A stretch of 43,265 nucleotides of DNA from Halarchaeum rubridurum (lineage in GTDB: Archaea > Halobacteriota > Halobacteria > Halobacteriales > Halobacteriaceae): positions 606,919 to 650,183 of the forward strand of contig NZ_BMOO01000001.1 of assembly GCF_014647115.1 (NCBI RefSeq). The letters run 5' to 3'. Numbering within the stretch: position 1 is the stretch's first letter; each line of letters opens with the position of its first letter. The notes under the pieces were generated by a model that was not told the DNA's origin, made no database searches, and worked only from the letters and a program-made list of their open reading frames with translations. The position numbers and the translations under genes were made by a program. Shown here one piece after another: positions 39,764 through 43,136 of this stretch.

Positions 39764-40039
39764 ATGGTCATCGACGAGCTCCGAGACGCGAGCGACACGC
39801 TCGACAGCGCCGCAGCGGACTGCGACGACGACGATCTGCGCGACCGACTGGCCACGCAGGCCGACGCCCTCGCCTCGCTCGCGGAGCGAGAGCGCGGCCC
39901 CGACCACGGACGCCTCGCGCGACACACGCACGCGCTCCAGGACATCGCGTCCGACACGGACGACGACGACATCGCCGCGGCCGTCGACGACGCCCTCGCG
40001 TCCATCCGGGCGTACCGCGAGACCGTCAGCGGCGTCTGA
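39764..40039 (+). CDS. Small helical haloarchaeal protein (DUF7553-like)
   Basis: A 91-residue acidic all-helical protein (MVIDELRDASDTLDSAAADC...). The conserved RGPDHGRLARHTHALQDI centre and YRETVSG end match what I recall as a haloarchaeal DUF family, probably DUF7553. No catalytic residues are evident. It lies 59 bases before the LOV-protein gene on the same strand, so co-transcription with the light-sensor pair is possible. Confidence 0.78.
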   Translation: MVIDELRDASDTLDSAAADCDDDDLRDRLATQADALASLAERERGPDHGRLARHTHALQDIASDTDDDDIAAAVDDALASIRAYRETVSGV

Positions 40040-40098
40040 CGCACGCGGACACGCGGGGAGGGCACAGAGGGAAGTATCGGGGGGGCAAAAGTACGCGC

Positions 40099-41514
40099 AT
40101 GGACGACCGGGAGGGGGGAGTCTTCCACGAACCCGACGCCGCGGAGCGACTGGTGCTCCTCATGTCTCCCGGGCGGGACCGCGAATTACTCGCCGAGTGG
40201 TTCGAGAGCGCCACCGACTACGCCGTCGAACCCGTGAGCGACGCGAACGACCTCCCCCCCGAGTACGACGTCTGCCTCCTCGACGACCGGACGTTCGGCG
40301 CGTATCGGGGGGCCATCGTCGAACACGCGTGCGAGGCGGACCCCGTCTACCTCCCACACCTCCTGCTGACGACCCGCGACGACGAGGGAGTGTGGAACGC
40401 CGACGGCGTCGACGACGTCGTCTCCCTCCCCGTCGGACGCGACGAGCTCCATCGACGCGTCGAGAACCACCTCCGCACGCGCCGCGCCTCGCTCCGCCTC
40501 GCCGAACGCGAACAACGCCTCCGGCTCTTCCGCCGCGCCATCGAGGCCGCCGCCCAAGGCATCACGATTGCGGACGCGAACGCGGACGACGCACCCGTCA
40601 TCTACGCGAACGACGCGTTCAGCCGTATCACGGGCTACGACACCGACGAAGTGGTCGGACGGAACTGCCGCTTCCTCCAGGGCCGGAACACCGACGAAGC
40701 GACCGTCGAGACGCTCCGCGACGCCATCGAACGCGGCGACCCCGTCTCCGTCGAGATACTCAACTACCGCAAGGACGGGACACCGTTCTGGAACCACCTC
40801 GACATCGTCCCCATCCACGACGACGCCGGCCGCATCACCCACTACCTCGGCTTCCAGCAGGACGTCACCCAGCGCAAGCGCCACGAGCTCCGCCTCTCCG
40901 TCCTCAACCGCGTCCTCCGGCACAACTTCCGGAACAAGATGACGGTGATACGCGGATACGCGGAGCGAATCGAGACCGGCGAAGCCACGCGCGAGGACGC
41001 AGAGCGCATCCGCCGCGCCGCCGACGAACTCCTCCAGATCGGCACCCAGATGTACGAGTTCGACACGCTCGTCTCCGACGAGAAGGCCGAAGGCGAATCG
41101 TTCGACCTCGTCGAAGTCGCCGAGAGCGAGGTCGAGACCCTCCGAGAGCACGCAGTACGCGCGGACGTCGTCACCGACCTCCCCGAACGCGCGCCCGTCG
41201 CCGGACACCCCTCCCTACGCGCCGCCCTCCGCGGGTTCTTCTCCCTCTTCGAGGACACCGCCGAAGTCGACCTCGACGTGACGGTCCGCGAACGCGACGG
41301 GGACGTCCGTCTCACCGTGACCGACCGCGGTACCACCCTGAGCCGACACGGCATCGAAATCGTCGCCCACGACGCCGAGACGCCGCTCGACCACCTCGAC
41401 CGGCTCGAACTCTGGTTGCTCCGGTGGGCCGTCGAGCAGTCCAGCGGCGAGTTCGACGTCGAGACCGCCGACGAACACCCGTCCGTCACGCTCCACTTGA
41501 ACGTCGCCGAGTGA
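40099..41514 (+). CDS. LOV-domain sensor histidine-kinase-like protein with degenerate ATPase domain
   Basis: A 471-residue soluble protein. Residues 16-125 resemble a receiver domain (VCLLDDRTF) without the full acidic pocket or the conserved lysine. Residues 143-260 form a PAS domain with the LOV flavin signature GRNCRFLQG (Cys190 is the adduct position) and matching Asn222, Asn232 and Gln253. A HisKA-like helix follows with the haloarchaeal H-box RVLRHNFRNKM (His275). The C-terminal 100 residues align with a HATPase domain but lack the N-box Glu/Asn and most glycines. It lies 57 bases before the KaiC-like gene. The photosensory role is inferred from the motif. Confidence 0.85.
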   Translation: MDDREGGVFHEPDAAERLVLLMSPGRDRELLAEWFESATDYAVEPVSDANDLPPEYDVCLLDDRTFGAYRGAIVEHACEADPVYLPHLLLTTRDDEGVWNADGVDDVVSLPVGRDELHRRVENHLRTRRASLRLAEREQRLRLFRRAIEAAAQGITIADANADDAPVIYANDAFSRITGYDTDEVVGRNCRFLQGRNTDEATVETLRDAIERGDPVSVEILNYRKDGTPFWNHLDIVPIHDDAGRITHYLGFQQDVTQRKRHELRLSVLNRVLRHNFRNKMTVIRGYAERIETGEATREDAERIRRAADELLQIGTQMYEFDTLVSDEKAEGESFDLVEVAESEVETLREHAVRADVVTDLPERAPVAGHPSLRAALRGFFSLFEDTAEVDLDVTVRERDGDVRLTVTDRGTTLSRHGIEIVAHDAETPLDHLDRLELWLLRWAVEQSSGEFDVETADEHPSVTLHLNVAE

Positions 41515-41548
41515 CCACGACCGAGACGGGGGAAGAGCTATTCCGACC

Positions 41549-41566
41549 GTCCCCGCATACAGGGAC
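41549..41566 (+). promoter_or_regulatory. Inverted repeat just before the KaiC-like start
   Basis: GTCCC (41549-41553) and GGGAC (41562-41566) flank an 8-base centre and end 5 bases before the ATG at 41572. They could form an RNA hairpin near the start or a protein site. A GCTATTCC sequence 31 bases upstream might be a TATA element. Confidence 0.3.
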
Positions 41567-41571
41567 GTCCA

Positions 41572-43023
41572 ATGACCGACGACAGTGACGACCGCACGAG
41601 CACCGGCGTGGCCGGCCTCGACGAGGTTCTCGGCGGGGGCCTCATTCCCGGACGAAGCTACATGCTCCGCGGCCGACCCGGCACGGGGAAATCGCTCCTC
41701 GCGCTCGCCTACCTCATCGACGGCGTCGAGCGGGGTGAAGACTGCCTCTTCGTCGCGCTCGAAGAGACCGAAGCCGACATCCGACGCAACGCCGCCGCGG
41801 TCGGCCTCGACATCGACGGCATCGCGGTCCTCGACCTCACCCCCGACTCCAGCGCGTTCACCGACGACGAGACGTACGCCGTCTTCGACCCCGGAACGGT
41901 CGAAGAACGCTCACTCACCGACGCCATCACCGAACGCGTCCGCGAACTCGAACCCACTCGGGTCGTCATCGACCCGATGACGCAACTACGATACCTCGCA
42001 CCCGACGAGTACCAACTCCGAAAGCAAATCCTCGCGCTCACCAGCTTCCTCGAACAGGTTGGCGCGACCCTCGTCTTCACCACACAAGCCACCAGCACCC
42101 ACAGCGACGAGGACTTTCAGTTCATGGCCGACGGCGTCATCGAACTCGGCGACACCGGGTCCGGACGAACCGTCTCCGTCCCCAAGTTCCGCGGCTCCGG
42201 CACCCGCAGCGGCACGCACACGCTCCGCATCCGCGACAGCGGCCTCAGCGTCTACCCCGAACTCGAACCGAGCCACCACCACCGGCCGTTCGCGTCCGAA
42301 TCCATCCCCTCCGGAATCCCCGAGTTCGACGAGCAACTCCACGGCGGAATCGAGCGCGGCACCGTCAGCATCATCTCCGGCCCGACCGGCGTCGGAAAGA
42401 CCACCACCGGCGCGCAGTTCATGAAGGAGGCCGCCGGCCGCGGCGAACGCTCCGCCATCTACCTCTTCGAGGAGGACGAACGCACCTTCCTCGAACGCTG
42501 CACCGCCGTCAACATCCCCGTCGACCGGATGGTCGAACGCGAAACCCTCTCCATCGAGGAAATCGAAGCCCTCGAATACACACCACAGGAGTTCGCCAAC
42601 ACCGTCCGCACCGACGTCGAGGAGTCGGACACACAGCTCGTGATGATCGACGGCATCAACGGCTACGAGCTCTCCATCCGTGGCGACGAACACACCTTCC
42701 GCTCCGAACTCCACCGACTCTGTCGCTACCTCAAGAACATGGGCGTCACCGTCGTCCTCATCGAGGAAGTCGCCACCGTCACCGGCGACTTCCAAGCCAC
42801 CGAAGGCGAGATTAGCTACCTCGCCGACAACATCGTCTTCCTCCGCTACATCGAGATGGACGGCGAGCTCCGGAAAGTCGTCGGCGTTCTCAAGAAACGC
42901 ACCAGCGACTTCCAGCGCAGCCTCCGCGAGTTCGAGATTACCCAGCACGGAATCAAGATCGGCGACCCACTCACCGGACTCCGCGGCATCCTTCGGGGCA
43001 CACCCGAACAACCCGGCGAGTGA
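41572..43023 (+). CDS. Double-domain KaiC-family ATPase
   Basis: A 483-residue RecA-superfamily protein with two KaiC domains. CI has STGVAGLDEVLGGGLIPGRSY, Walker A GRPGTGKS (34-41) and catalytic Glu64-Glu65. CII has SGIPEFDEQLHGGIERGT, Walker A GPTGVGKT (270-277) and Glu300-Glu301. The segment TEGEISY (410-416) aligns with the cyanobacterial phosphorylation region, keeping Thr and Ser but with Tyr at the second major site. No KaiA or KaiB is present. Haloarchaeal KaiC homologues are usually treated as signalling ATPases. The upstream LOV protein suggests a light-linked input. GAA codons are more frequent than in most neighbours. Confidence 0.92.
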   Translation: MTDDSDDRTSTGVAGLDEVLGGGLIPGRSYMLRGRPGTGKSLLALAYLIDGVERGEDCLFVALEETEADIRRNAAAVGLDIDGIAVLDLTPDSSAFTDDETYAVFDPGTVEERSLTDAITERVRELEPTRVVIDPMTQLRYLAPDEYQLRKQILALTSFLEQVGATLVFTTQATSTHSDEDFQFMADGVIELGDTGSGRTVSVPKFRGSGTRSGTHTLRIRDSGLSVYPELEPSHHHRPFASESIPSGIPEFDEQLHGGIERGTVSIISGPTGVGKTTTGAQFMKEAAGRGERSAIYLFEEDERTFLERCTAVNIPVDRMVERETLSIEEIEALEYTPQEFANTVRTDVEESDTQLVMIDGINGYELSIRGDEHTFRSELHRLCRYLKNMGVTVVLIEEVATVTGDFQATEGEISYLADNIVFLRYIEMDGELRKVVGVLKKRTSDFQRSLREFEITQHGIKIGDPLTGLRGILRGTPEQPGE

Positions 43024-43060: not shown

Positions 43061-43136
43061 AGCCAAGGGCCGGATTTGAACCGGCGGTGGGCGGCTCTGC
43101 AGGCCGCTGCGTTAGGCCGGACTCTGCCACCTTGGC
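43061..43136 (-). tRNA. tRNA-Cys (anticodon GCA)
   Basis: On the minus strand the acceptor stem is GCCAAGG/CCTTGGC. The anticodon arm is GCGGC-CTGCAGA-GCCGC, giving anticodon GCA. The T-arm is GCCGG-TTCAAAT-CCGGC, and the discriminator base is U, as in other tRNA-Cys. The 3' CCA is not encoded. No intron is present. A GTTTAAGCG element lies about 30 bases upstream of the 5' end. Confidence 0.95.

Follow-up and report, generated by a model that had tools for sequence, protein, structure and literature searches.

A LOV-domain protein and a double-domain KaiC in Halarchaeum rubridurum: a possible light-input form of a KaiC module with a pseudo-receiver partner

In the haloarchaeon Halarchaeum rubridurum, a gene for a LOV-domain protein directly precedes a gene for a double-domain KaiC on a stretch of 43,265 nucleotides (assembly GCF_014647115.1, contig NZ_BMOO01000001.1, positions 606,919 to 650,183 of the forward strand), which is referred to as the window in the following. 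The initial annotation of this pair proposed that the LOV protein passes a light state to the KaiC ATPase. Comparison with other loci revealed that what stays constant in the partner of haloarchaeal double KaiC is an N-terminal pseudo-receiver, here designated pREC, and not LOV; the sensor behind pREC varies. It is proposed that the gene pair is the light-input version of a widespread KaiC two-gene module, in which pREC serves for docking, LOV acts as the switch and the signal is passed on by contact; the probability of this reading is put at about one half. The original light-input interpretation gains from the recurrence of the pair, from the complete LOV site and from the lack of a KaiB match over the cut-off; it had not seen the pREC link, and a pair of KaiC with a histidine kinase was already in print.

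The predicted structure of pREC, with a predicted local distance difference test (pLDDT) value of 90.9, was superposed on the receiver of KdpE (1zh2_A) with a Z of 16.2 and a root-mean-square deviation (rmsd) of 1.8 over 110 aligned residues, and a profile match to the receiver-containing 3n53_A was obtained with E 1.1e-6. The best rows of the fold searches are mainly response-regulator receivers, and KaiB-like or CikA-type families are possible beyond the rows shown. In an alignment of 77 of 89 pREC domains (A4, from which 12 near-duplicates or second copies were excluded), the beta-5 Lys is present in none of the rows and the beta-3 Asp in 72, and the acidic pair is not conserved. Because the Lys is absent and the acidic pair is not conserved despite the receiver fold, pREC is classified as a pseudo-receiver. 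A named family for pREC was not found in Pfam and NCBIfam scans. The sole Pfam receiver match, with 19.2 bits versus 30.2, was obtained for a cyanobacterial partner, and NCBIfam gave weak matches to receiver proteins, such as PleD with 16.7 bits versus 474.

Among 40 related genomes, 25 contain double KaiC genes, at 29 places. For 27 of these places, a pREC-type N-terminal domain was identified in the fetched stretch with a profile of 18 domains built from those same loci; L078 is without pREC, and L088 has a weak match. For a class-wide search over 97 genomes, a profile of 17 pREC domains and a KaiC query were used; the cut-offs of the KaiC queries of the study were E 1e-40 and 1e-35. Here, a pREC match was identified within 5 kb of 68 of the 71 double-KaiC places (62 genomes), with the KaiC of G063, which is split in two, taken as one place, and within 500 bases of 67 of them. 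In the other direction, a double KaiC lies within 5 kb of 78 of the 93 pREC matches (67 genomes), a number in which three weak matches with an internal stop (G073, G100, G110) were retained. Loci L150-L153, with pREC far from KaiC, were tabulated and entered in no count. In genomes giving no seed sequence, pREC was present at 51 of 52 KaiC places.

The pREC gene is located downstream of KaiC on the same strand at 55 of the 71 places and upstream in divergent orientation at 12, and is lacking at three; the window is the single place at which it lies upstream on the same strand. Behind pREC, the partners contain LOV, another PAS domain, GAF or no recognised sensor, followed by kinase or BAT-HTH regions. 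The LOV domain is one among several sensors, and the conserved link to KaiC is pREC, which the initial annotation had not seen.

For the 78 loci with pREC (three loci without it were left out), the pairwise distances of KaiC and of pREC are correlated, with a Mantel r of 0.74, compared with a maximum of 0.11 in 2000 permutations. Paralogue differences in KaiC and in pREC are also positively correlated in all eight genomes that have two complete modules, with r between 0.28 and 0.94, the weak value of 0.28 being that of G008; two further two-module genomes, G004 and G070, were left out, since one of their loci lacks pREC. The correlated distances speak against a random reassortment of the two genes. 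A different explanation would be that KaiC and its partner are merely co-inherited or co-regulated, by an operon, a shared promoter or joint transfer, and do not touch each other. Adjacency and correlated distances are no proof of contact, and KaiC-pREC modules are also found on plasmids. However, the linkage persists through the changes in gene order, through changes of both sensor and output, and across Archaea and Bacteria, so that co-inheritance alone is considered improbable. Natural fusions of pREC with KaiC were also considered as contact evidence; this line was dropped, since no fusion was found among the stop-to-stop open reading frames of loci L069-L153.

The residues of the LOV site reported in the initial annotation were all found at their positions, namely Cys190 in GRNCRFLQ, Asn222, Asn232 and Gln253. 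The PAS domain matches solved LOV domains with a best E of 5.4e-38, and residues 152-258 of the predicted model were superposed on the LOV structure 6rhf_A with Z 21.2 and rmsd 0.7 over 106 aligned residues. The model of the full-length protein of 471 amino acids has a mean pLDDT of 87.7 and a predicted template modelling score (pTM) of 0.63; in it, a long helix (residues 114-150) joins pREC to LOV, and a second helix (257-292) exits LOV. Flavin binding and a photocycle would be expected for such a domain. Some PAS flavoproteins sense redox, and one of the weaker family matches of the window protein is to NifL, so that the LOV-type domain might be a flavin redox or oxygen sensor instead of a light sensor. 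Against this stand the adduct Cys and the three flavin-contact residues, which are complete both in the window protein and in that of the sister species (G002, 80% identical), and an archaeal LOV domain for which passages of PMC12202551 describe a photocycle in salt of up to 3 M; a redox sensor is thus regarded as very improbable.

Whether the adjacency is found in one genome only had been named beforehand as a point on which the light-input idea would fall. The adjacency does recur in other genomes: a LOV partner was identified at 22 of 81 haloarchaeal double-KaiC loci, 29 of these 81 being from the search of relatives and 52 from the class search; 56 loci have a non-LOV pREC partner, and three have no pREC. 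A role of LOV as the defining partner of KaiC is ruled out, because the partner is non-LOV at 56 of the 78 pREC loci. The count of 22 includes L129 (NCRYLQ with NYR, FWN and GFQ), as well as L147 (NCRYLQ) and L111 (frameshifted partner, motif seen), which were assigned by hand; the Pro variant of L122 (NPRMLQ) was left out, and L082 and L084 have two pREC genes each, of which the second one carries LOV. On the KaiC tree, a quick tree with SH-aLRT support only, the LOV state requires five changes, at least four of them forced by starred branches, compared with a mean of 19.5 after shuffling, and none of 500 shuffles gave a value as low as five. One KaiC clade of 12 members (support 100) has LOV partners throughout, one of them frameshifted, in divergent gene order. 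The 97 genomes gave 148 LOV-motif matches. Of these, 20 are no more than 5 kb away from a double KaiC, compared with 0.37 expected for uniform placement, calculated with an approximate mean genome size; for two of the 20 (G000:C2 and G004), no pREC was found in the protein. Among the 40 relatives, the nearest LOV proteins outside the genus are partners from the divergent clade, with 41% and 39% identity.

The genome G000 contains a second double KaiC (L086, G000:C2:174795-176219), behind which a gene for a pREC-PAS kinase matching HATPase well and, after about 1.7 kb, one for a LOV-GAF-BAT-HTH_10 protein are located. A LOV gene is thus found no more than 2.5 kb from either double KaiC of this genome. 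At L149 (G063), the double KaiC is split over two frames beside an open LOV partner, and at L111 (G087) it is the reverse, with an open KaiC and a frameshift in the LOV partner; these broken frames are either sequencing errors or signs of decay.

The second gene codes for a KaiC with two PF06745 stretches, of which residues 8-479 align with the solved KaiC 8zn5_B (E 3.3e-61). The two intact ATPase sites reported for this protein were confirmed: both halves contain Walker A (GRPGTGKS at 34-41 and GPTGVGKT at 270-277), a Glu pair (64-65 and 300-301) and the Walker B Asp (134 and 360). KaiC is presumably a hexamer. Ser415-Tyr416 are found at the positions of Ser431-Thr432 in cyanobacterial KaiC (numbering after PMC11832031), so that the Ser is kept and the Thr is replaced by Tyr. 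The system had been described as free of KaiA and KaiB. For KaiB this is supported, since PF07689 is over its cut-off in none of the 40 genomes, with three sub-threshold fragments, in a scan whose control set of 14 genomes gave six matches, one over the cut-off; no search was made for KaiA. On the same result, the idea that KaiB takes part as an overlooked third member was rejected. Several double KaiCs on haloarchaeal plasmids are annotated as gvpD or gas vesicle protein.

The kinase half of the window protein is degenerate. Both its HisKA and its HATPase_c matches fall below the cut-offs (Table 1). In an alignment of 44 of the 90 pREC proteins (A2), the Asn of the N-box falls into a gap, Gly413 is replaced by Thr and Gly437 by Glu, while Asp409 and Gly411 are still present; of HATPase_c, the N, G1 and G2 motifs for ATP binding are thus not preserved. 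The motif loss is common to the sister species, for which no HATPase_c match was obtained at E 0.1. In other genomes, four LOV partners gave HATPase_c matches at 8.1e-16 to 2.8e-13. Only the HATPase loss is telling, because HisKA is below the cut-off also in LOV partners with a good HATPase (21.1 to 22.5 bits in three of the four, with no HisKA match listed for the fourth). The phospho-acceptor His275, located in an invariant column of A2, is retained. Between the window and G002, dN/dS is 0.23 for the degenerate HATPase region, 0.23 for the whole LOV gene and 0.11 for KaiC, by a pairwise Nei-Gojobori-type count on this one species pair. A decaying pseudogene is not favoured, given the intact frame and the value for the HATPase-like region. 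As judged from the sequences, the window protein has probably lost its kinase activity, yet stays under purifying selection. Since the kinase motifs are lost in the genus and the region is still constrained, signalling by contact is likelier than a phosphorelay.

The main rival is the reverse direction of signalling, especially for lineages with an intact-looking kinase. Here, KaiC would be a timer or a gauge of the ATP state that is read by pREC in a SasA-like manner, and LOV would add light to the kinase output; the window protein would then be a late, kinase-dead scaffold or a dominant-negative partner of another kinase. This direction is consistent with the kinase G1 motif, which was identified by pattern in 72 of the 90 pREC proteins of haloarchaeal loci, with the different output domains in which other pREC proteins end, with KaiC being usually the upstream gene (55/71), and with the interpretation of the bacterial pair, in passages of PMC3164672, as a KaiC with a SasA-like interacting output kinase. 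However, the kinase of this genus, sister species included, has lost its motifs, and no obvious enzymatic output is left on the LOV side. The reverse direction is held to be a possible but doubtful explanation for the window.

For the preferred reading, with contact signalling from the photoreceptor to KaiC, the following mechanism is proposed. The double KaiC would form the ATPase core, on which a dedicated partner docks by its N-terminal pREC and brings along an exchangeable sensor. Blue light would lead to a flavin-Cys190 adduct in LOV, and the adduct would shift the helix that runs from pREC into LOV and the one that leaves LOV. By this shift, the contact of pREC with KaiC would be changed, and with it the ATPase or autokinase state of KaiC and, through KaiC, the output. 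In this genus, the kinase half is probably unable to bind ATP, so that the signal would be transmitted by contact and not by a phosphorelay. In a more far-reaching and tentative form, judged rather unlikely as a whole, pREC would be a dedicated KaiC-binding adaptor across haloarchaea and several bacterial phyla, and the LOV protein of this genus a kinase-dead photoreceptor with KaiC as its sole effector, forming a KaiB-free light-gated ATPase.

Several observations weigh against this mechanism. Three of the 71 double KaiCs have no pREC match within 5 kb, and 15 of the 93 pREC matches are far from any double KaiC. The correlated distances can arise without contact, since linked genes could coevolve by joint inheritance alone. 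In the divergent LOV clade, 11 of the 12 members have DCRFLQ in place of NCRFLQ, and in L109 a Gln takes the place of the second Asn. The kinase looks intact in all four members of this clade that were tested, and a phosphorelay may be the signal route there. In addition, the partner gene located downstream of the closest KaiC from another genus (G048, 69% identity) is of the non-LOV type, and together with the nearest LOV proteins belonging to the divergent clade this indicates that partners were exchanged or lost.

Modules of this type were also identified beyond haloarchaea. A scan of named genomes revealed at least 34 loci. Among the matches listed, pREC reaches at least 40 bits at 23 of 25 double KaiCs of at least 42% identity and at none of nine KaiCs below 42%. 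The two exceptions in the first group are Haladaptatus (L155), with one weak receiver-like open reading frame, and Nitrococcus (L171), for which the contig ends soon after KaiC; in the second group, the KaiCs of Roseomonas (L176) and Bradyrhizobium (L181) are followed by an open reading frame with a different receiver-like start. Of the 23 listed loci with pREC, 11 are in bacterial records, from Anaerolineae, four cyanobacteria, Aliifodinibius, Terriglobia, Halanaerobium, Halothiobacillus, Gemmatimonadetes and Armatimonadetes; contamination is possible, because eight of these 11 are metagenome-assembled genomes. A LOV-bearing pREC partner is present at six of the 34 listed loci, among them those of Halorubrum salinum, H. 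californiense, H. rubrum and Salinigranum salinum; in the LOV partner of H. californiense (L158), the kinase motifs appear intact on inspection by eye. By eye, the listed partners also include outputs of GGDEF-HD-GYP (L170, Halanaerobium) and GGDEF-EAL (L175, Halothiobacillus) type, which suggest a link of KaiC with cyclic-di-GMP.

Five plasmid records were examined, and pREC genes were found beside KaiC in four of them, but not in Ensifer. The annotation of these genes is generic, such as 'ATPase domain-containing protein' or 'sensor histidine kinase'. Directly upstream of the double KaiC, HalX-domain genes are located on a plasmid of Haloarcula sp. SYNS111 (L191, 2984-3595) and on one of Halorussus halophilus (L192, 3348-3950). 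Remoter KaiC relatives, with about 37% identity, are present on plasmids of Sinorhizobium, Rhizobium, Ensifer and Sphingobium.

The features of the gene pair are listed in Table 1. The distance between the two genes given by the initial annotation was confirmed by the coordinates of the open reading frames. Upstream of the LOV gene, a DUF7553 gene (39764-40039) was identified, of which position and sequence (90%) are kept in G002. The non-coding stretch 40037-40098 before the LOV gene contains a block (GAAGTATC, GGGGG, CAAAA) common to G002, which is a candidate promoter. Directly 3' of KaiC, a tRNA-Cys gene (43061-43136, minus strand) follows, after which the contig ends.

Table 1. Features of the LOV-KaiC gene pair, with positions in the window
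Feature	Position	Strand	Evidence or remark
pREC-LOV-HisKA-(degenerate HATPase) protein, 471 amino acids	40099..41514	+	ATG 40099, TGA 41514
Pseudo-receiver (pREC), N-terminal, residues about 16-130	40144..40488	+	Receiver fold, beta-5 Lys absent, KaiC linkage
LOV domain, residues about 140-264, Cys190/Asn222/Asn232/Gln253	40516..40890	+	Match to solved LOV domains, predicted structure, residues
HisKA-like dimerisation helices, His275 retained	40891..41088	+	HisKA 24.7 bits, cut-off 26.9
Degenerate HATPase-like domain	41089..41511	+	HATPase_c 14.6 bits, cut-off 26.4; alignment
Intergenic gap, 57 bases	41515..41571	+	AAGAGCTATTC and CATACAGGGACGT common to sister genome G002
Double-domain KaiC, 483 amino acids, two intact ATPase sites	41572..43023	+	ATG 41572, TGA 43023

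The route of input into archaeal KaiC is a standing question, and the title of PMC3941300 reports light-dependent expression of four cir genes, the KaiC homologues of Haloferax volcanii. A near-constant partner domain that carries a light sensor in several lineages leads to a simple in-vitro question on the ATPase activity and phosphorylation of KaiC. Should pREC be an adaptor for KaiC in general, the unrelated sensor and output partners in Archaea and Bacteria would be explained by a single interaction. The lineage with a lost kinase, beside others in which it is apparently intact, allows contact signalling and phosphorelay to be compared in nature.

In the cyanobacterial KaiABC system, the double-domain KaiC has the sensor-kinase partners SasA and CikA, of which CikA contains a pseudo-receiver. 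The window pair is similar in consisting of a double-domain KaiC and a partner of the sensor-kinase type. It differs in having no KaiB over the cut-off, Tyr at the position of Thr432, an N-terminal pREC, and a predicted photoreceptor as partner. With the bacterial LOV histidine kinases, Brucella LOV-HK and EL346, the window protein shares a LOV fold, the full set of LOV residues and a HisKA-type region to which the LOV domain is coupled; unlike in these, the kinase is degenerate, pREC precedes LOV, and a KaiC gene is adjacent. Among the KaiCs considered in earlier work is rrnAC0131, which we take to be haloarchaeal.

A closer counterpart is the pair of KaiC and Nt_HK described in 2011. According to passages of PMC3164672, the KaiC gene in bacteria without kaiB is systematically followed by a histidine kinase gene, and the N-terminal domain of this kinase is conserved and receiver-like; co-transcription was demonstrated in Ramlibacter tataouinensis by RT-PCR, binding of the N-terminal domain to KaiC was proposed, and rrnAC0131 was placed in a heterogeneous third group. 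The window pair resembles it in having a KaiC without kaiB, an adjoining gene of the kinase type and a receiver-like N-terminal domain, and its SY at the KaiC phospho-positions is one of the combinations SY, TY and SF given in the legend of Figure S6. The gene order is reversed in the window, where the LOV gene comes first, and the section of PMC3164672 on the pair describes no LOV partner. For an identity of pREC with the proteobacterial N-terminal domain, no significant match was obtained: with the domains of Bradyrhizobium and Roseomonas, used as stand-ins for RtaNt itself, hhalign gave probabilities of 0.5 and 1.4.

In H. volcanii, cirC, the sole double-domain KaiC of this species, adjoins a gene annotated as fixL, as stated in the 2014 paper (PMC3941300); this is likewise a double KaiC beside a gene of the sensor type, and the sensor of the neighbour is not analysed in the section on it in that paper. 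For archaeal LOV proteins, passages of PMC12202551 report LOV photochemistry of ALovD-1, with REC, PAS and GAF modules preceding archaeal LOV domains and mostly histidine kinases behind them; a text search found KaiC nowhere in that paper. Divergent REC domains in Bat proteins are mentioned in PMC5847659. The concept of archaeal KaiC-like ATPases as signalling hubs (Makarova et al. 2017, as cited in PMC5847659 and PMC13286277) agrees with archaeal KaiCs linking input and output domains, and the gene-context analysis of that work may already hold part of the pREC-KaiC linkage. The initial annotation knew of no described system with this pairing. This stands for the LOV-KaiC pair, which was not found in the literature searched on KaiC with LOV domains and on haloarchaea, mostly abstracts and passages, including those of PMC6848086 and PMC10359499, neither of which is on such a pair; for the pairing of KaiC with a histidine kinase it does not, in view of PMC3164672 and PMC3941300. 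The LOV-KaiC pair is a light-sensing form of the already known KaiC-kinase type and not a new category, and as such it is well supported and directly testable.

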